Assembly: GCF_000195315.1 (NCBI RefSeq)
Contig: NC_015389.1
Location: 62,001-126,000 of the forward strand
DNA length: 64,000 nucleotides
Direction: 5' to 3'
Source: Coriobacterium glomerans PW2
GTDB lineage: Bacteria; Actinomycetota; Coriobacteriia; Coriobacteriales; Coriobacteriaceae
Shown here: positions 49,332 to 64,000 of the stretch, in pieces
How the letters are laid out: each line of letters begins with the position of its first letter
Position numbering within the stretch: position 1 is the first letter of the stretch
Program-made: the position numbers and the translations under genes
Notes under the pieces: model-generated
What the model was told of the DNA's origin: nothing
What the model saw: only the letters and a program-made list of their open reading frames with translations
The model's database searches: none

Positions 49332-50846
49332 ATGGCAGAGGCAGTTGCGACCCCATCGCATGAGGCGGACGTTTCGAGGGCGCTGAGAAGGCAGACCTCA
49401 TTTCTCGGACATCCGAAGGCTGTCGGATCGCTCAGCTTCATGGTCCTGTGCAACTCGTTTGCGAACTACGGCATGAGTGCCATTCTCGTGTACTATCTGT
49501 ATGCGCAGATCCCTACCGGCCTGGGGCTCACTCAAGCCGAGGCGGCCCAGCTCGTCTCCCTGTATTCGGCTTGCACGGTGCTCACCGGGCTCATCGGCTC
49601 CTATGTCGCCGATCGCGTGCTCGGGCCCAGAAGGGCGCTCACCATCGCGAGGTCCATCCAAGCTCTCGCTTTCACGCTGCTCGCCATTCCGTTCCTCGGT
49701 ATCTTCGGCTACGCTGCCAGTCAGGTGCTGCTGTGCATCGGGACCATGGCCGCCGGACGCAGCCAGGACGCGCTCACGAAGAAGATGTACGATCTGGATG
49801 ACCCGCGCTGCGACGGCGCGTTCGGTCTGCAGTACGTCATCAACAACATCGGCGCCGCCGTGCCCGCGCTCGTCGGCACCGTGGCGCTCGTGAGCGGCTA
49901 CCACGTCGCATTCGCCCTGCCGGCTGCCTTGCAGATCGCCGGCGTGGTCGTGTACGTCCTCACGCAGGAGAGCTACTTCGGCCCGATCGGTCTGGAGCCC
50001 GACGATCCGATGACGCCTGCGGCGAAGCGGACGTTTCTCATCGGTCTCGCGGCAGCGGTCGCGGCAGCGATCGCGCTCGGCTCATGGGCGTTCATCTCCG
50101 GGACGGTCACGATCAGCGTGTTCGCGAACGCCGTGAGCACGGTCGCGATCTTCGTGCCGCTGTTCTATCTGGCTTACATCATCAAGAGCAAGAAGAACAC
50201 GCGCGAGGAATCTCGCCACGTGATGAGCATCGTGCCGCTGTTCCTGTGCACCGCGGTCACCAACGTTGTCTTCCAACAGGCCATGGGGGTCCTGTCCATC
50301 TATTCGGAAACCACCGTCGATCGGATGCTGTTCGGGATCGAGGTCACGCCCGCCATCTTCAGCACGCTCGGAGCCGTGTTCTCCATCGTGTTCGGTAGCA
50401 TATGCACGCTATTGTGGACCAAGCTCAAGCGACAGCCGACCGCCGCGGCGAAGGTCGGCTTCGGCAGCATGATCTATGGAATCGCGCCTCTGTTCATGTG
50501 CCTGCCGTTTCTGCTGTATCCAGTCGGCGTGAAGGTGAGCCCGCTGTGGATAATCGGCTTCTGGTTCATCGCCATGCTCGGCGAAGCCATAGGCTGCCCG
50601 GTGGGCTACTCCGCATCAGCCAAGGTGGCACCGGCTGCGTTCTCGACGCAGATGATCACGGTGTGGGCACTGACGGGTTCATTCGGCGGCGGCATGGCCA
50701 CCATCATGGTCAACTTCTACCATGAGGGCTCCGAGGTGCCCTATTTTATGCTGCTCGGGGGCATCTGCATCGTGATCAGCCTGGCCGTCCTGGTATTCAG
50801 CAGACAGCTCGAGCGCGGAATGGGATTTGCGAGCGCAGATGAATAG
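49332..50846 (+). CDS. POT-family MFS transporter, paralogue 2
   Basis: A 504-residue paralogue of its upstream neighbour. The same N-terminal block F-L-G-H-P-K-A-V-G-S-L-S-F-M-V-L-C-N-S-F is present, and again the ExxER residues are replaced (V, N, S). Transmembrane topology as for the first copy. The gap to the first gene is 122 bases without a strong terminator. RBS GAGAGGTGG upstream. Presumably a peptide or amino-compound importer of different specificity. Confidence 0.88.
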   Translation: MAEAVATPSHEADVSRALRRQTSFLGHPKAVGSLSFMVLCNSFANYGMSAILVYYLYAQIPTGLGLTQAEAAQLVSLYSACTVLTGLIGSYVADRVLGPRRALTIARSIQALAFTLLAIPFLGIFGYAASQVLLCIGTMAAGRSQDALTKKMYDLDDPRCDGAFGLQYVINNIGAAVPALVGTVALVSGYHVAFALPAALQIAGVVVYVLTQESYFGPIGLEPDDPMTPAAKRTFLIGLAAAVAAAIALGSWAFISGTVTISVFANAVSTVAIFVPLFYLAYIIKSKKNTREESRHVMSIVPLFLCTAVTNVVFQQAMGVLSIYSETTVDRMLFGIEVTPAIFSTLGAVFSIVFGSICTLLWTKLKRQPTAAAKVGFGSMIYGIAPLFMCLPFLLYPVGVKVSPLWIIGFWFIAMLGEAIGCPVGYSASAKVAPAAFSTQMITVWALTGSFGGGMATIMVNFYHEGSEVPYFMLLGGICIVISLAVLVFSRQLERGMGFASADE

Positions 50847-50874
50847 CGAGTGCGACCATGAAAGGGGTGCGATC

Positions 50875-52383
50875 ATGATCTCAAGAGAGCTTTGCAAGCG
50901 GGCGGTGGGTTGCATCCGGCGGTTGCGCTATCTCGAGTTCACTGAGAATGCGCTGTATTACGATCGCTGGTCCGGGAGCTGCCCCGTCGCGGGATACGGC
51001 TTCGAGCAGTCCGCGACCGAGCACCTCATCGAACTTGAACGCGATCTGCTGCTGTGCCCCGAGACGCGCGAGATCGAGCGTACGCTGCGCGGGGCTCTCG
51101 AGCAGGAGGGCGCCAGCGAGCTGGAGCGCGGCATGGCTCGGTGGCTCACGCGACGGGTCGAGGAGGCGACGAGGGTGCCGCTCGAGCTCGCCGCAGAGCT
51201 TTCGGCCGCGAGCACCGAGGGTGAGCGCATCTGGGCGATATGTCGAGACCGCAATGACTTTCAGGGCTTTTTGCCTGCGCTGAGGCGGCAATTCGATATC
51301 CAGCGCCGCATCGCCGAGGCAATCGACGCGGATGCGCAGCCCTATGACGTGATTCTCGCGCGCTGCGATCCGAGTTATCGAACCGATGAGCTCGACGCGC
51401 TGTTCACGAAGGTGAAAGCGGGCGTCACCGGCATCCTCGCCTCGTCGCGCTCAACGTGGGACGCGGTTGACGATTCGCTGCTCGCTGCTGCCGACAGGCG
51501 CAGCGAGCAGGCGGAGGAGCGGCTGCTCGCAGACATCACGCTGCTGCTCGGTGCCGATTCCGAGCGCATCGGTCGCTGGCGCGTCCGACACCCCGTGACC
51601 GTGTGCACCGGCCCGCGCGACGCGCGTCCATCCACCTATCTGCACGGATCTGTTTCACTGTTCCAGACGCTTCGCGCCATGGCGCACGAGATGGGGCATG
51701 CAATGTATGCGTCGTCGAGCTCGCAGGCCGTCGTCGAGGCAGGTCTGTGGGGCGGCGTAGAGGGCATCATGCATGAGAGTCAGTCGCGGTTCTTCGAGAA
51801 TCACATCTGGCGCACACCCGAATTCCTGTCGCGTCTCATCCCTGGGCTCGCGCGCGAGTTCGAGGAATTCGCCGACGTCGATCCTTGCGCGCTGGCGCGG
51901 ATGCTCAACAAGCCAACCCTCAAAGTCAGCAGGTTGGCCGCAGACGAGCTGACCTATCCTGTTCATATCATCATCCGCCACGAGATCGAGCGCGACGTCT
52001 TCGATGGGGTGCTGTCGCTCGAAGACATCGAAGAGGCTTGGAACGACCGATACGAGACCTATCTCGGAGTCAGGCCGCGCTGCGCCAGCGAAGGGGTGCT
52101 CTCGGACGTCCATTGGGCGAGCGGAAGCGTGGGCTATTTCTTCAGCTATGCCCTGGGCGATTTATATGCCGCCCAAATCGACCATGCGCTTCGCGATCAG
52201 GTCCCCGATGCCTTCGAGCGTCTCTCCAAGGGCGATCCGGAGGCGATCATCACCTGGCTTAGGGATCGGATCTGGTGCCATGGACAGACGCTCACCGCCC
52301 CCGAGGTCCTTCGTGGCGCCAGCGGTGAGGACTTGAATGTCGAGCACTATCTAGACCATCTGCGTTCACGGTTCGAGATCTGA
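50875..52383 (+). CDS. M32 family carboxypeptidase
   Basis: A 502-residue metallocarboxypeptidase of family M32 (thermostable carboxypeptidase 1 type). The zinc motif H-E-M-G-H is near residue 270, the third ligand Glu in M-H-E-S-Q-S-R-F-F-E about 27 residues later, and a DxRxT-like D-A-R-P-S-T about 30 before it. It removes C-terminal amino acids from peptides in the cytoplasm, matching peptide uptake by the surrounding transporters. The start at 50875 has GAAAGGGG upstream; it follows the second POT gene by 28 bases, so they are cotranscribed. Confidence 0.92.
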   Translation: MISRELCKRAVGCIRRLRYLEFTENALYYDRWSGSCPVAGYGFEQSATEHLIELERDLLLCPETREIERTLRGALEQEGASELERGMARWLTRRVEEATRVPLELAAELSAASTEGERIWAICRDRNDFQGFLPALRRQFDIQRRIAEAIDADAQPYDVILARCDPSYRTDELDALFTKVKAGVTGILASSRSTWDAVDDSLLAAADRRSEQAEERLLADITLLLGADSERIGRWRVRHPVTVCTGPRDARPSTYLHGSVSLFQTLRAMAHEMGHAMYASSSSQAVVEAGLWGGVEGIMHESQSRFFENHIWRTPEFLSRLIPGLAREFEEFADVDPCALARMLNKPTLKVSRLAADELTYPVHIIIRHEIERDVFDGVLSLEDIEEAWNDRYETYLGVRPRCASEGVLSDVHWASGSVGYFFSYALGDLYAAQIDHALRDQVPDAFERLSKGDPEAIITWLRDRIWCHGQTLTAPEVLRGASGEDLNVEHYLDHLRSRFEI

Positions 52384-52468
52384 GGTGATGAGGGCACCGG
52401 AACCGTGCGATCTGCCCAGGGTTGGTGTGCAGCTATAAGCGGCAGCGCTTTCTATGAAGGGATGGGGC

Positions 52469-57278
<4,810 letters not shown>

Positions 57279-57456
57279 GGACGCTCGGTACCGCAGCGGG
57301 AAAGTGCGCGTCGTCTGGTGAAGCGGCATCTCCATCATCCTCGCGGACGGATCTAGTGGAATCCGTTTCGTGCCGACGAAAGCCCACAGTCGATTTTTTC
57401 GCTCAACGAGTCTGTGATAAGGTGTAAATCTGCCAATTATAATTACAGTTAGGTGA
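57279..57456. other. Non-coding stretch after the beta-galactosidase
   Basis: No gene or clear terminator is seen. AT content rises sharply toward 57430, where AATTATAATT, a perfect palindrome, lies in a possible promoter or border sequence. Confidence 0.5.
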
Positions 57457-58075
57457 TCAGACATCCGATGAATCGAGACCGATGCGAAGAACGAGGTTGT
57501 GCATTCCCGAATCACGGACTTCAGGGAGGATCACCGACTGTCTCTCGTAGGCGTCGGCGATCACCCGGGACAGGAGCCGCGCGCCGCCCCCGTTGACCGG
57601 CGGGTATCCGAGCACGCCTGCGACGAGCATCTCGGCGCGGCCGAGTCCGGGCAAGTTTGCGGGCGAGGCGTCCCTTGTCGCAAGCCCGCCTCGGGCGGTC
57701 GACCGCAGAGGTGGCCGCATCGAGGCGCGGCCTCGATCTGCACCGCGCGCGGATGGCTCGTGCGCTACGTCTCGAGTTAGCGGTCTAGGTACTCGGCCTG
57801 CTCGGGCGCAACCCAAGTACGCTCGGTCCTCCGGCACGGAGGCCATGAGCGAGCACGCTCGACCGGCCGCCGCTAACCGATCGGCCAGCGCCCGCGTCAG
57901 CTGTCACGCGACCGCATCCTCCTCTAGCATGAAGTCATTGCAGGCGGTGAGGTCGGTCAGGCCTCCGGGGTCGCGACCGCCCGAGGCGATCTTTCCGAAA
58001 CGCAGGTGGTGCGCGACCGCACATCCCGACCGAACCGCGCGGTTCCAGATGACCCCGGTGTTTGGTACCCGGTGA
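57457..58075 (-). pseudogene. Decayed gene remnant, unidentified
   Basis: The minus strand keeps one long reading phase across this stretch with high C and G at third positions, ending at a TGA at 57457, but it is broken by an in-frame TGA at 57906-57904. No start codon or ribosome binding site fits the upstream end. The translated C-terminal 60 residues look coherent while the middle is Arg/Ala-rich and poor. No family was recognised. Best read as remains of a gene. Confidence 0.35.
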
Positions 58076-58226
58076 TCATTCCGTTCAGATAATATTGGAT
58101 TTCAACTGTGCGCGTAGGGTCGGCTAGCCGACCCGGTCAACCCGGCTGCCGAGCCCGACGGAGGCTGACCACCGGGCGTTTCGAGGCTTTTCATCTATGA
58201 ATACCAAATTCTTGAAAAGCGCCCAT
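58076..58226. other. Composition boundary before the PTS island
   Basis: No gene seen. This stretch leads from GC-rich sequence to the AT-richer island that begins with the RpiR gene. It may be the border of an acquired segment; no direct repeats or tRNA were recognised here. Confidence 0.4.
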
Positions 58227-59075
58227 TCATTGATGGAGGTAAAGCTTACGCGATTCAAGTAGGTGGCTTTTGCTCTCGCGGTATCTTGCCGCATAGATGC
58301 AAGAAAAGATGACATTCAAGGCATATTCAATCGCAACTTGGGAGGAAAGAGAGTAATTGGCGATCTGGGTGTTTTCATCTGATGGAAGCTCGATCAGAGT
58401 GTCAGCTTCCAATCCCAAAGGGCTTAGGGGATCAGATGTTATAGCGACGATCGGGACGCCCCCGTTCCTTAGAATGCGGATCTCGTTCAAAATCTCTGCA
58501 GTTCTACCACTATAAGATACGAGTAGAGCTACATCCTCTTCATGTGCATGGGTACATAAATAGGCTTGGTCAGGTTGCTGGTATGTTATCTTGACATATA
58601 CATTTATTTTCAGCATTTTGTTTTGGAAATCGATCAGCCGAATAAAGCTATCGCTAACGCCTATGGCAACGATGCTACTTGCGGAGGAGAGCCGACTCAC
58701 AGCCGTGCGAATAGCCTCTTTATCAAATCGCTGTAGGCAAGAGGCAACTGTGTCGTTTGTTAGACCGGCAATTTTAGATGCAATTTCGATCTCCGAGTCG
58801 AATTCATCAAAAGGCAGATTGATATTGACATCAGATTTTCTGACAAGGCGCGAGCGGTAATCAAGCGCCAAACGAGCTTTTAGTTCCTTGAATCCATGAA
58901 ATCCTATTTTCTTGCATAGTCTGAGCACAGTTGTTGTTGAAGCATGTGTTCGGCGAGCCAGATCCTGAATTGGCATGCTGCAGACAGTGTCACTGTTCTT
59001 CACAATGAATGCGGCCACTGTCTTCTCGGCGTCAGTTAGGGAACAGATCGACATCAACCGCTCGGGCAGCTCCAT
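58227..59075 (-). CDS. RpiR/MurR-family transcriptional regulator
   Basis: A 282-residue regulator. Residues 1-75 form the RpiR-type helix-turn-helix (L-T-D-A-E-K-T-V-A-A-F-I, then A-S-T-T-T-V-L-R-L-C-K-K-I-G-F); residues 100-280 are a SIS domain that binds phosphorylated sugars (V-S-Y-S-G-R-T-A-E-I). Family members control sugar phosphate pathways. The gene is divergent from the PTS genes with a 283-base space that contains a perfect palindrome. Codon use is AT-richer than the chromosome around it, consistent with acquisition. ATG at 59075 has GAGGT upstream. Confidence 0.92.
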   Translation of the reverse strand: MELPERLMSICSLTDAEKTVAAFIVKNSDTVCSMPIQDLARRTHASTTTVLRLCKKIGFHGFKELKARLALDYRSRLVRKSDVNINLPFDEFDSEIEIASKIAGLTNDTVASCLQRFDKEAIRTAVSRLSSASSIVAIGVSDSFIRLIDFQNKMLKINVYVKITYQQPDQAYLCTHAHEEDVALLVSYSGRTAEILNEIRILRNGGVPIVAITSDPLSPLGLEADTLIELPSDENTQIANYSLSSQVAIEYALNVIFSCIYAARYRESKSHLLESRKLYLHQ

Positions 59076-59170
59076 GGATACCTCATTTGAAGATTAGAAA
59101 TCGCCGGCTAAACGAAAATCTAGATGAGCAAATTTATGACAGAGATTCGCTTTTCGGTAATTATATTACA

Positions 59171-59185
59171 TGTTATCGGATAACA
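59171..59185. promoter_or_regulatory. 15-bp palindrome, candidate RpiR operator
   Basis: TGTTATCGGATAACA is a perfect inverted repeat (7-bp arms, central G) midway between the divergent regulator and PTS genes. It is the most probable binding site of the RpiR regulator. Confidence 0.6.
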
Positions 59186-59358
59186 GGCAGTAACAAATTC
59201 ACAGTTTTGAGCCAAATCATTTACAGGAATCAATCTCAGCTCTATAAAGAGTCTCAACACTCAAGCGGTTGAGTCAGATAATGAATTTCCGCATTGAGAC
59301 CACCACTCGAATGACATTCGTACACACATGATCAGCCAAACCTTTCGGAGGTGCCAGA

Positions 59359-60654
59359 ATGCTTACTCGATTGATTGAACAAAGCCTTACACCAAAGTTG
59401 GCAGTAGCGACCAATTCAAGATTCTTCATATCATTCAGAGGTGCCTTCTTTACCTTAATGCCTCTCACGATTATCGGGTCCGTTTTTATGCTCATCACCG
59501 ACTTTCCAGTCCCAGGATATGCGCAATTCATGACAGGATTGTTCGGAACCAATTGGTCGACTTTCATCTCGCCCGCATATCGAGCCACATTTAATATGAT
59601 GGGCATTCTGCTTGCTGGAACCATGGCATATAAGCTTGCGGAAAGCTACGAACTCGATAAGCTGACCGTCGGCATTCTGGGGATCGTTTCCTATGTTGTC
59701 GTCACGCCAAAGTCGCTTGTAATGGAGAGCGGCGAAAAGGTTGCTGACATCATGCAGTTTGATTGGCTAGGAACAAAAGGAATCATCACTGCTATCCTAT
59801 GCGCAACGATAGCCGTGCAGATATTTCGTTTTTGCGTTTCAAAAAACGCCACGATTAGACTACCAGAAAGCGTTCCACCAATGGTGATCAGCGCATTCGC
59901 TGCACTGATCCCAGGCGTGATCACAGTCACCCTGCTTCTGATCATAAACGGGATCAGCATGATCTTGGCAGGATCGTTTCCAGAGCTTATATTCACGCTC
60001 ATCCAAGCTCCTCTGCAGACGGTAATCGGGCAGCCGTGGGCAATTGTTCTTGTTGCCTTTTTGAACGGTCTGCTATGGTGGGCCGGCATCCATCCGACAG
60101 TGGTCAATTCATTGATCTATCCCTTTCTTTACGCGAATGCTGCAAGCAATCAATTGCTTGCGGATGCGGGAAACTTAACAGCCACCACGGGTATGTTTGG
60201 GTCGGTGCAGATGCTTGACCAGTTCCTCACTATCGGTGGAGCGGGAATGATGATCGGCATGACGATTTCGATGTTGATCGCGGCTCGATCGATGCGAATG
60301 AAGGTCGTCTCAAAAGTTGCTTTCATCCCTTCTTTATTCAATATTTCCGAGCCGGTGACGTTTGCGACTCCGACGGTGTTTGAACCTCTTATGCTGATGC
60401 CGATGATTCTGACACCAGTGCTGGCCTGCTTGGTTGTTATGGGTGCCCAATCGATCGGTATCATGCCGATGTTCACAAATGTCCAAGCTCCTTGGGCAAC
60501 TCCATTTCTCTTCAGTGGGTTTCTGGTTGCCGGCTGGAATGGGGCGCTGCTTCAGATGGTCATCGTTGTGATAACCGTTCTTGTTTACCTTCCCTTCACA
60601 AAGGCCCTAGACCTACGTTTTGCAAATGAGGAATCTGAACTCGAATCCAATTAG
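59359..60654 (+). CDS. PTS lactose/cellobiose-family EIIC component
   Basis: A 431-residue permease of the lactose/cellobiose PTS EIIC family with about ten transmembrane helices. The sugar-binding motif region N-I-S-E-P-V-T-F is near residue 333 (the N-E-P-V-x-F motif of CelB with Ser for Asn). It imports and, with EIIB, phosphorylates a sugar or sugar conjugate. No EIIA gene is nearby, so the IIA must come from elsewhere. The ATG is preceded by CGGAGGTGCCAG, giving AGGTG as binding site. First gene of a three-gene operon with the IIB and a C-S lyase-like enzyme. Confidence 0.9.
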   Translation: MLTRLIEQSLTPKLAVATNSRFFISFRGAFFTLMPLTIIGSVFMLITDFPVPGYAQFMTGLFGTNWSTFISPAYRATFNMMGILLAGTMAYKLAESYELDKLTVGILGIVSYVVVTPKSLVMESGEKVADIMQFDWLGTKGIITAILCATIAVQIFRFCVSKNATIRLPESVPPMVISAFAALIPGVITVTLLLIINGISMILAGSFPELIFTLIQAPLQTVIGQPWAIVLVAFLNGLLWWAGIHPTVVNSLIYPFLYANAASNQLLADAGNLTATTGMFGSVQMLDQFLTIGGAGMMIGMTISMLIAARSMRMKVVSKVAFIPSLFNISEPVTFATPTVFEPLMLMPMILTPVLACLVVMGAQSIGIMPMFTNVQAPWATPFLFSGFLVAGWNGALLQMVIVVITVLVYLPFTKALDLRFANEESELESN

Positions 60655-60667
60655 AGAGGGGACCAAA

Positions 60668-60979
60668 ATGGTCAGTATTGTTCTCATGTGCTCCCAAGGC
60701 GCTTCAACAAGTATTCTTGTCCAAAAAATGAAGAAGTCAGCAGAAGATCAACAAATTAAGTGCAAGATAGCTGCCTACTCCGTGAACGCGCTCACTCAGA
60801 TCAAAGACGCAGCAGACATCATCCTGCTGGGTCCACAGGTAAAATATATGCTGGCTAAGATACAGGCAGAAGTCCATTGCAAGGTGATACCGATCGACAT
60901 GAGAATGTACGGATTGATGGACGGTGAGAGTGTACTGCAGACAGCTATTCAAGCGCTCGGCAGTCGGGGATTGTCATGA
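60668..60979 (+). CDS. PTS lactose/cellobiose-family EIIB component
   Basis: A 103-residue cytoplasmic phosphocarrier. The phosphorylation site Cys8 lies in L-M-C-S-Q-G-A-S-T-S, the PTS IIB (lactose/cellobiose) loop; the length fits the family. It takes phosphate from IIA and passes it to the sugar in IIC. The start at 60668 has GAGAGGGG upstream; the longer frame from 60620 overlaps the end of the IIC gene. Its stop overlaps the next gene's ATG (ATGA at 60976-60979), so translation is coupled. Confidence 0.93.
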   Translation: MVSIVLMCSQGASTSILVQKMKKSAEDQQIKCKIAAYSVNALTQIKDAADIILLGPQVKYMLAKIQAEVHCKVIPIDMRMYGLMDGESVLQTAIQALGSRGLS

Positions 60980-62145
60980 GTCGTTTGGATACCGTATGCA
61001 ATTCGGTCGCCAAGGCCCGCGAACTATATCGCCCTATGTCCCCAGAAATTGTCCTTACATCGTCCTTCCGCTTCGGAAGTTTTGATGAATATGCGAAATC
61101 ATGCAACGATGAGTTCGATTCCTATGTCTACACGCGAGGGACCAACCCGACCACCTCACTGTTAGAAGGGAAAATCGCCGAGCTTGAGGGCGGGGAGAGA
61201 TGCAAGGTCTTCGCATCCGGTATGGGTGCGATAAGCGCTACGCTGCTTACATTTCTGCGTCAAGGTGATGACGTACTGTTTGTGAACACGATATACAGTG
61301 CAACTTCTTCACTTTTGAAGTATATGGAGCGCTATGGTGTGACATGGAGCTCGATCAGCTCATGCAAGACCGACGTGATTGCTAGTGCAATAAAGGCCTC
61401 CACGAAGATCATCTACATTGAAAGTCCGTCGTCACAGAAGTTTGAACTCGTCGATATAGAGAAGATTGCAAAAATCGCGAGAGTGCGACATATCATGACA
61501 GTGATCGACAACACGTGGGCGACCCCACTGTTTCAGAAACCCCTTAACCATGCTGTCGATATATCCATTCAGTCCTGCTCAAAATACATCGGCGGTCACT
61601 CTGATATTGTTTGCGGAGCGGTGATCTCTTCAAAAAAGCTCATTCGCCAAATCGAGGAGTTTGGTTTTCTGCTGCTGGGCTCAACGGCAAGCCCTTTGAC
61701 GTCCTACCTTGCTCTGAGAAGTCTTCGAACCCTACCATGCAGAATGAGGACGTTGGAGTGCAGCGTTAAAGTTGTCATCAAATTTCTTGAGAATGATCCC
61801 AGAATCAAAAAGATTCATCACCCACTTTGCGGAGATGCGTGGCAAAGGAAGTTGGCAGTGAAGTATCTTGACGGATATGGCAGTCTCCTCGCCATTGATT
61901 TTGCTAACCCGGATCTTGATAGGTTTGAGCAGTTCATAAACTCGCTACAGCTTATATCGGTCGGTGTAAGCTGGGGTGGGTTCGAGAGCTTAGTCCTGCC
62001 TGCATACAGAAAGACCAACAGCGAGACAGTGCTGAAGCGTGGACTGGATTTGACGCATGTTCGGCTCTATGTTGGACTGGAGGACCCATCGGACATAGTC
62101 TCTGATCTGAGTTATGCTCTCGATCAGGCGTACGGCAGTCTTTGA
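60976..62145 (+). CDS. Cys/Met metabolism PLP enzyme (C-S lyase type)
   Basis: A 389-residue fold-type I PLP enzyme of the cystathionine gamma-synthase/beta-lyase family. The lysine Lys203 in S-C-S-K-Y-I-G-G-H-S-D binds PLP; Y-T-R-G-T-N-P-T-T near residue 52 and V-I-D-N-T at 177-181 (Asp178) complete the site. Close relatives cleave or form the C-S bond of cystathionine, methionine or cysteine conjugates. Being translated together with the PTS IIB, it probably acts on the imported sugar-containing compound rather than in methionine synthesis. Which C-S substrate is unknown. Confidence 0.87.
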   Translation: MSRLDTVCNSVAKARELYRPMSPEIVLTSSFRFGSFDEYAKSCNDEFDSYVYTRGTNPTTSLLEGKIAELEGGERCKVFASGMGAISATLLTFLRQGDDVLFVNTIYSATSSLLKYMERYGVTWSSISSCKTDVIASAIKASTKIIYIESPSSQKFELVDIEKIAKIARVRHIMTVIDNTWATPLFQKPLNHAVDISIQSCSKYIGGHSDIVCGAVISSKKLIRQIEEFGFLLLGSTASPLTSYLALRSLRTLPCRMRTLECSVKVVIKFLENDPRIKKIHHPLCGDAWQRKLAVKYLDGYGSLLAIDFANPDLDRFEQFINSLQLISVGVSWGGFESLVLPAYRKTNSETVLKRGLDLTHVRLYVGLEDPSDIVSDLSYALDQAYGSL

Positions 62146-62301: not shown

Positions 62302-62619
62302 ATGGGGATCAGAATCAATAGAAAGACACCGGAGACTGACGCAGCATGCCTGCTCTGCTCCTTGCATGAACACATAACAGGGGGGGGGGCTCCTAGAAAA
62401 GGCTCTATAGAAACAACCTCTGAACCACTTGATGCATTTGTCGCGTGGGCACGCAGCTCCACATTCTCTCTCAACGTAGAAATAACACCATATGAACCTC
62501 GGGATGTCTCACCCGAGACCGGCTTTTGCTGCGCGCGAATCGTGTTCAGCTCTCACGCTCCCAGCGCAAAAGATGCCTATCAATCGCTTGCAGCATGCCG
62601 GCATGGAGGTATCTCATGA
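62302..62619 (+). CDS. Short ORF with a G10 tract, coupled to the LRR protein gene
   Basis: A 105-residue frame ending in TGA at 62617-62619, which overlaps the ATG of the LRR protein (ATGA at 62616). The run GGGGGGGGGG at 62380-62389 lies within it as Gly-Gly-Gly codons. The product has no recognisable family or signal peptide. The close coupling supports expression ahead of the LRR gene; slippage in the G run could shift the frame and change translation of the downstream gene. No clear ribosome binding site for the first ATG, so it is uncertain. Confidence 0.4.
   Translation: MGIRINRKTPETDAACLLCSLHEHITGGGAPRKGSIETTSEPLDAFVAWARSSTFSLNVEITPYEPRDVSPETGFCCARIVFSSHAPSAKDAYQSLAACRHGGIS
62380..62389. 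repeat. G10 homopolymer
   Basis: Ten consecutive G, the longest single-base run noticed in the window, upstream of a cell-surface protein gene. Such tracts are classical sites of slipped-strand phase variation; sequencing error in length is also possible. Confidence 0.85.
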
Positions 62620-64000
62620 GCCGCCTCCGAGGAGTACGGCCTCTTTTGCGAGCGATATCAGCTGTTTGCCTCGTTCTATGGTTTCTGCTCGCGACCCCGA
62701 TCGTCTCATGGGCGGATGATGCCGGTGACGGAAAATCGGCAGGCGAGATCAACGGCTCTTCGGTCAAGCCCTCGCACGGGGATGACGTTCAGGACAATAC
62801 GCGTTGAGACCAAGAAAAGGTTTCTGAGACTCTTTCTGTCGTCAAACCAGCCTCGGTACTTCATGTCTCAAAGGCGGGCGACAGGTTCACAGGATTAATC
62901 CTAGTAGATGGCACGCCAACAACCTGCACATTTGGAATCACGAGCACTGATCCGAATCATCGCACGGCAGAGATAGGAAGCGGCGTGCGCCTTCAGGCGG
63001 CAATCGACACATCGTCCAGAGGAGAGCTTGAACTGCCCAGCCATATCATAAATAAAAATGATGGATTGGAATATGAGGTGAACGAGGTTGGCATGGATGC
63101 GTTCTATGGCTGCAAGTACCTCAAATCAACAGGTCTCGCCGGAAATACCAGCATCACGATTCTAAGCTGGGAATGCTATGACGGATGTACTGCCCTGACG
63201 TCAACCGGGCTCGAGGACAACGCGTCGATCACGACCATCTTGGGGACCGCGTTTGCTGATTGCACCGACCTGCAGATGACTGGGCTTGCACGGAACAAGA
63301 CGCTGACAAGTCTGGGTGGTTACACGTTTTGGCGCTGTCCGCATATCAAGTCAACCGGTCTCGATGGGAACACCTCGGTGTCCACCATCGGTGCGCTGGC
63401 GTTCAACGGTTGTTTTGATCTGGGCACCGAGAGCACGAAGACGGCGAACGCGCGTGATCTTGTGATCAATCAACCGATGCATGGGGACAAGCCCGTAGGT
63501 CTCGTGCTGGGCACGCATCCCGACCCGGAGGTCTCGGACGGCAATGTCTTCTCCGGAACCGCTTTCACGTCGCTCTATCTGCTTTGCGACAAGAGTCTTC
63601 TCACCATTACGGATAACGCTTTGGAGGGATCTGCAATCACAAGGATCTTCGTCAACTCCTCATGGCTCGGAACGGAGGAATTTTCCAACGGGGGTAGGAC
63701 GTACCGGATCTCCGACGGTACGCTCGTCATCATGGATCCGCTGCAATCTGTGAGCGCTGCACGGACCACGGGGACCTCTGACGGAGCGACTGCAATTGTT
63801 TGCACGAGCAGATCGGCTGTCGTAGAGATTGTCGATTCCGGTGGTGTTCGTCTTGCATCCCGTGAGATCAGCATCGACGAGACGGCACCTCCTCAGCGCA
63901 GCGCTCTTGATATTCCATCCGGATCCGGTCTCTCGCCATCAGCCGACCGCTTGAGTGCGCATCTCATCTCGTCTGGACCATTCGCCTATCCGACTGACGT
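62616..64000 (+). pseudogene. BspA-like leucine-rich-repeat surface protein, in-frame TGA, partial
   Basis: The ATG at 62616 has GGAGGTATCTC upstream and begins a signal peptide (basic start, long hydrophobic core, V-S-W-A-D). After 63 codons there is a TGA at 62805-62807; the same phase then stays open for almost 1,200 bases to the window edge. Beyond it the translation contains BspA-type LRR_5 repeats: four exact 25-residue units from 63129 to 63428, each with a T-G-L start, S-I/V/L-T/S and a Phe/Tyr-x2-Cys core. Either a nonsense pseudogene, a sequence error, or a protein whose production is switched. The C-terminus is not in the window. Confidence 0.7.
63129..63428 (+). repeat. Four tandem 25-codon leucine-rich repeats
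   Basis: Four exact-length units of 75 bases within the surface protein, starting T-G-L-A-G, T-G-L-E-D, T-G-L-A-R and T-G-L-D-G. The repeat unit corresponds to the LRR_5 fold of BspA-like adhesins. Confidence 0.8.

Follow-up and report, generated by a model that had tools for sequence, protein, structure and literature searches.

The island examined here occupies 3.9 kb within the window (the whole 64,000-nucleotide stretch of Coriobacterium glomerans PW2 DNA that was analysed), and the open reading frame list and family searches resolve it into a divergent RpiR regulator, the EIIC and EIIB components of a lactose/cellobiose-type PTS and a PLP enzyme of family PF01053. The regulator gene (58227..59075, minus strand) encodes an HTH_6 domain (PF01418) and a SIS domain recognised by Pfam and NCBIfam models. 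On the plus strand, EIIC (59359..60654) scores 303.9 bits against TIGR00410, the lacE family model (cut-off 236), with bcChbC as a structural match (PDB 3qnq, E 2.3e-72), and EIIB (60668..60979), which carries an MCSQGAST motif at its N-terminus, scores 61.8 bits against PF02302 (cut-off 23.6), placing both components in the lactose/cellobiose family. A TTG at 60620 is a possible alternative start for EIIB, and the ATG at 60668 agrees with the family. The last gene (60976..62145, plus strand) matches PF01053 (Cys_Met_Meta_PP) with 316.9 bits and encodes a predicted PLP-dependent beta-lyase resembling cystathionine beta-lyase; its start overlaps the EIIB stop in an ATGA (60976..60979, plus strand), an arrangement of translational coupling. 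These genes lie where an earlier note on this DNA, which described a compact island of divergent regulator, PTS pair and coupled lyase, had placed them.

The same note reported that EIIA, glycosidase and methionine genes were missing, which is correct inside the island; the absence of EIIA is, however, only a local loss, since the corresponding operon of Longicatena includes the gene and a family search found five lactose/cellobiose EIIA genes (PF02255) elsewhere in the C. glomerans genome. Family searches of this genome found neither another full-length PF01053 gene nor a match to MetE (PF01717), and a methionine-pathway role for the lyase, considered as a candidate, is not favoured on these grounds. 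They also found one PF02574 protein, which scored under the cut-offs of the homocysteine-methyltransferase models that it matched and through which some use of homocysteine is possible. A promoter scan gave a result no better than that from shuffled sequences.

The lyase and its phylogeny

Aligned with E. coli MetC (31% identity over 334 columns), the island lyase retains all of the PLP and alpha-carboxylate residues of that enzyme, Y52, R54, Y107, D178, K203, S332, W333 and R363 corresponding to MetC Y56, R58, Y111, D185, K210, S339, W340 and R372, with Lys203 as the PLP lysine and Trp333 as the counterpart of MetC Trp340. This tryptophan belongs to the SWGG(F/Y)ESL motif of cystathionine beta-lyase, shared by MetC and the island enzyme, whereas MetB and MGL have leucine in its place; all members of the PTS-linked clade described below carry SWGGFESL, and the Ser-Leu of methionine gamma-lyase and cystathionine gamma-synthase was not encountered among them. 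Assignment to the cystathionine gamma-synthase family in the earlier note is therefore right for the Pfam family, but the residues are those of a cystathionine beta-lyase. The enzyme differs from MetC at the positions of Arg59 and Asp116, which we take to have a role in binding cystathionine and which are missing here, being replaced by Gly55 and Ser112 in the island lyase and by Gly/Asp and Ser/Ala/Lys across the clade. Both MetC residues are among those studied by mutation (Lodha 2010, cited in PMC5025676). The island enzyme further differs from MetC in forming part of a separate clade and in being tied to transporters and not to methionine genes.

Against profile models the lyase scores 252.6 bits with the cystathionine beta-lyase equivalog TIGR01324, below its cut-off of 365.9, and its best model is that of the L-Ala/L-Glu racemase, NF041088, at 354.6 bits against a cut-off of 629, likewise not reached. 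The TM1270/archaeal racemase family to which this model belongs also supplies the best sequence match in the PDB (TM1270, 9iz5), a near-best fold and the same active-site tryptophan, yet it is separated from the island lyase in the tree. An AlphaFold2 model (pLDDT 90.7) has methionine gamma-lyase and TM1270 as its closest PDB folds, as the superfamily predicts.

In two species, Enterococcus phoeniculicola and E. canis, a RidA gene (PF01042) lies immediately 3' of the lyase gene. Clustering of RidA genes with cystathionine beta-lyase, an enzyme able to form 2-aminoacrylate, is on record (PMC4433059), and the neighbourhood seen here makes elimination more likely than synthesis or racemisation to be the main reaction. 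Together with the SWGG(F/Y)ESL signature it makes beta-elimination the favoured prediction, in line with the chemistry proposed in the earlier note, and it fits C–S and C–O cleavage equally well. A racemase side activity is likely by analogy, since racemisation is also known of MalY-type enzymes (PMC5845896) and of MetC, whose annotation reads cystathionine beta-lyase/desulfhydrase/alanine racemase.

A maximum-likelihood tree of 78 lyases contains one clade of 30 rows (support 100/100) that takes in every lyase labelled in it as PTS-linked. E. coli MetC and MetB, Citrobacter MGL and TM1270 all fall outside it, in a branching order that is unsure because of long branches, and the island enzyme groups with Longicatena and three loci of Erysipelotrichales, five rows in all (100/97). 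No EIIC neighbour was found for clade rows L117-L120, L122-L124 and L126. At L120:7513-10647, and also at L118 and L123, the lyase gene overlaps a gene for a Cof-type HAD phosphatase and lies 3' of one for an IagA/BgsA-type glycosyltransferase. Two lyase genes, L102 (G364:C6:21712-22854) and L124:7704-8861, contain an in-frame TAA stop and are probably pseudogenes.

The GC content of segments inside the island is 43–49%, against 57–65% in the sequence to its left, and no strong relative of the lyase (E <= 1e-100) other than itself was found in 298 genomes of the class to which C. glomerans belongs. Low GC, tree position and absence from the class indicate that the island was acquired horizontally from Bacillota. 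A plasmid search returned matches that were all below 60% identity, and the neighbourhood of one of these held spore-germination genes and no PTS.

Gene order, transporters and regulation

A scan of genome contigs found the same gene order in more than 12 genomes. Lyases 49–57% identical to that of C. glomerans occur in Longicatena, Enterococcus, Vagococcus, Schleiferilactobacillus, Lactiplantibacillus and Companilactobacillus, in each case immediately 3' of an EIIC gene whose product is 58–74% identical to that of the island and with a divergent RpiR gene. Longicatena has the order EIIC-EIIB-EIIA-lyase (EIIA matching PF02255 with 105 bits), with identities of 57% for RpiR, 74% for EIIC and 55% for EIIB; the RpiR orthologues of Enterococcus, Vagococcus and the Lactobacillaceae are 37–43% identical. 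The EIIC genes of the Lactobacillales operons have no EIIB or EIIA gene beside them, so that the PTS would depend on partners encoded elsewhere, and lactose/cellobiose EIIA genes were present in all 12 genomes searched for them. The lyase is encoded by 16 of the 245 genomes of the order of Longicatena and by 7 of the 395 of that of Enterococcus.

The identity of the permease varies. Three Erysipelotrichales loci have the order RpiR-lyase-EIIC with an EIIC just 28–31% identical to that of C. glomerans, a fourth has cupin-lyase-EIIC, and these other EIIC lineages that partner the lyase in Erysipelotrichales are 24–42% identical to each other. Pairing with several EIIC lineages argues for a functional tie, and an orphan lyase or chance adjacency to the PTS was rejected on the recurrence of the order and the multiplicity of partners. 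Placement of the lyase within MetB/MetC and a PTS adjacency unique to this genome had been named in the earlier note as outcomes that would tell against its proposal; what was found is a separate clade and an adjacency that recurs elsewhere.

Most of the more distant relatives that were examined (35–44% identical) also adjoin a transporter gene on the same strand, and no PTS was found near the ABC- or NhaC-linked ones. Those of Bacillaceae and many from Nonomuraea lie beside SBP_bac_1 and two permeases, and those of Alteromonas, Sediminibacillus, Lachnospiraceae and others beside an NhaC-family protein. The ABC permeases score best against the MalF, GlcT, GlcU and MalG models, all under cut-off, a result that suggests the CUT1 carbohydrate group. 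At L036:7215-12307 and similar Bacillaceae and Nonomuraea loci the lyase relative is immediately 5' of the genes for the binding protein and two permeases of this carbohydrate-type ABC system, and the Bacillaceae loci have a GntR/FCD regulator 5' of the lyase. Two Lachnospiraceae loci (L023:3232-10059 and L017:3296-10107) combine the lyase with a short-chain dehydrogenase, an ILVD/EDD dehydratase, an RraA-like aldolase, an NhaC-type transporter and an AraC regulator, an operon whose make-up suggests the breakdown of an acid or of a compound resembling an amino acid. The lyase family is best read from these neighbourhoods as serving an import system, the importer being exchanged between lineages.

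The bond cleaved, C–S in the earlier note, may instead be C–O, a reading in keeping with the carbohydrate-type transporters, lactose/cellobiose PTS and CUT1 ABC, found beside the lyase. An O-glycosyl-serine or O-glycosyl-threonine, for instance from glycoprotein breakdown, could be opened by a C–O lyase to a sugar phosphate, pyruvate or 2-oxobutyrate, and ammonia; no thiol would then be made and no glycosidase would be necessary. Two Erysipelotrichales loci (L125:5257-15999 and L128:7396-15624) have an operon-like run of EIIC, GH38, RpiR, GH3 and lyase, the GH38 being of the mannosylglycerate-hydrolase type (572 bits, under cut-off), and such glycosidases in the lyase operon of two relatives suit this reading, as does the missing Asp116/Arg59 pair of the cystathionine enzyme, while RidA is equally compatible with it. 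The C. glomerans operon, however, has no glycosidases, PF01053-family enzymes of known activity prefer sulfur leaving groups, and we know of no C–O lyase acting on O-glycosyl-serine or -threonine. We regard this alternative as unlikely, if the least so of the three weighed here.

Within the PTS-linked set, Lys/Arg155, Arg355 and His/Gln361 occur in all 21 members, glutamine standing at position 361 in a few rows of the clade, and the three occur together in none of the 50 ABC- or NhaC-linked sequences. Lys155, Arg355 and His361 are hypothesised to form a candidate phosphate site, a hypothesis and not a proof because the PTS-linked set is a single clade, and phylogeny by itself could explain these basic residues.

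The SIS domain of the regulator suggests, as is usual for the RpiR family, a sugar-phosphate ligand. A 13-bp palindrome, GWAAYNNNRTTWC, leaves a footprint across 13 orthologous intergenic regions, and its only exact match in the 64 kb is the putative RpiR operator GTAATTATATTAC at 59157..59169. A second putative operator, GTAACAAATTCAC, lies 33 bp from the first at 59190..59202, and a further palindrome, GTTATCGGATAAC (59172..59184), is a weak possible operator with two mismatches to the consensus. Across 14 divergent promoter regions there are 23 sites with at most one mismatch to GWAAYNNNRTTWC, against 2.04 expected, an excess that is descriptive and not a blind test because the consensus came from those same regions; the sites are mostly paired, 43–44 bp apart. 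When the paired pattern was sought in 13 genomes, matches with at most one mismatch were found in six, in each solely at the lyase operon, so RpiR is probably dedicated to the lyase-PTS unit. The island thus has the form of an RpiR operon, with a divergent HTH_6 and SIS regulator and palindromes, as putative sites, in the shared promoter region.

Such dedication bears on a plainer reading, in which a general cystathionine/cysteine beta-lyase or racemase shares a promoter with an unrelated PTS and sulfur or D-amino-acid metabolism comes under carbon-dependent control. It would accord with the best (under cut-off) model NF041088 and the PDB match TM1270, with the racemase in the annotation of MetC, and with Lactobacillus sakei, where a MalY beside a lactose/cellobiose PTS is both racemase and beta-lyase (PMC5845896). 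The link to several EIIC lineages and to other transporter types is hard to put down to accident, though, the genome offers neither a second PF01053 gene for transsulfuration nor a MetE match, and an RpiR probably reserved for this unit, with palindromes to itself, suggests a specific inducer. We consider this reading improbable; a plain racemase survives solely as part of it.

A proposed route and its parallels

On balance we lean towards a dedicated operon through which a sugar-like amino-acid conjugate is imported, phosphorylated and cleaved by beta-elimination. EIIC and EIIB, served by an EIIA encoded at another locus, would carry a polar conjugate of this kind inwards and phosphorylate it; the PLP enzyme would then take off the side chain by alpha,beta-elimination at Cbeta-S or Cbeta-O. 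The products would be 2-aminoacrylate and a thiol or sugar that bears the phosphate, and the 2-aminoacrylate would decay to pyruvate and ammonia, either on its own or through RidA. The SIS domain of RpiR would sense the phosphorylated intermediate, and the regulator would control the unit via the palindromes of the divergent promoter region. As to the bond, C–S is our first choice, held tentatively and at somewhat short of an even chance overall, and C–O the second.

The conserved set in many Gram-positive bacteria suggests an undescribed nutrient route. Its fuller form, which comparison of sequences and neighbourhoods leads us to advance only with reserve, would have a PTS-phosphorylated sugar-amino-acid conjugate cleaved by a beta-lyase adapted to phosphate through Lys155, Arg355 and His361, the ABC- and NhaC-linked relatives cleaving an unphosphorylated substrate. 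Transporters beside the non-PTS relatives are what one would look for if the lyase works on something brought into the cell. Counting against the scheme are the NhaC-type transporter of some of these relatives, which is not a sugar transporter, the clade rows for which no EIIC neighbour was found, and the missing EIIB and EIIA beside EIIC in Lactobacillales.

The earlier note likened the island to E. coli malI-malX-malY by analogy and not homology, and this is borne out. Both have a divergent regulator, a PTS permease and a PLP beta-lyase, predicted in the case of the island, whereas the E. coli system has a LacI-type regulator, a fused EIIBC and a MalY of another subgroup, and BLASTP found no significant similarity of the island lyase to E. 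coli MalY or of the permease to MalX. A nearer analogy is available in the closest described case, the malY cluster of L. sakei LT-13, in which a MalY-type C–S lyase/racemase adjoins a lactose/cellobiose PTS and which comprises PRD regulators, EIIA-EIIB-EIIC, aminopeptidases and the MalY racemase/beta-lyase (PMC5845896). The two share a lactose/cellobiose PTS beside a PLP enzyme, a C–S lyase in L. sakei and a putative one here, in a variable island; by the paper's description they differ in the PRD regulators, the aminopeptidases and the MalY type of the lyase. By analogy, the island operon may work like MalXY and the L. sakei cluster, with no homology detected in the parts compared with E. 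coli. Literature searches turned up no relevant account of a PTS that acts together with the cleavage of S-glycosyl-cysteine or thioglycosides.

The remaining parallel, the dga system of Salmonella, brings with it another reading of the substrate. There, D-glucosaminate is taken up by a mannose-family PTS and passed to a PLP ammonia-lyase (PMC9529869). As in the route proposed here, the PTS hands on a phosphorylated compound resembling an amino acid to a PLP enzyme, although by the cited paper the PTS is of the mannose family and the enzyme of another family. The island PTS could similarly import a polyhydroxylated amino acid (an amino-sugar acid), with the PLP enzyme as dehydratase or ammonia-lyase on its 6-phosphate, and the dehydrogenase, ILVD/EDD dehydratase and RraA-like aldolase beside the Lachnospiraceae lyases do resemble sugar-acid catabolism. 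Aldolase and sugar-acid enzymes are nevertheless absent from the C. glomerans, Longicatena and Enterococcus operons, and the lyase family normally expels a side-chain substituent; we hold this to be the most improbable of the alternatives.

Should cleavage of an imported conjugate be correct, sugar-like conjugates of amino acids would form a class of nutrients that enter bacteria via a sugar PTS and are opened by a lyase and not a glycosidase. The branch of the cystathionine-lyase superfamily that is linked to transporters, whose members at present carry annotations as methionine enzymes or racemases, would gain a function. Possible adaptation of PLP lyases to phosphorylated substrates could then be put to a concrete test, and PTS and C–S-lyase pairs such as MalXY, whose part in physiology has long been open, would be given a context.

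Flanking sequence

To the left of the island, about 950 GC-rich bases (57279-58226) separate the RpiR gene from a beta-galactosidase gene and contain two open reading frames without a Pfam match, possibly a decayed gene. Further left, two mutually similar genes of the POT family of peptide transporters (50001-50846 and 52454-53977) stand either side of an M32 carboxypeptidase gene (50827-52383). To the right, a small open reading frame of no recognised family (62302-62619) contains a run of ten G (62380-62389), a possible slippage site, and is followed by a gene for a BspA-type leucine-rich repeat protein (62985-63998) that runs past the end of the window.
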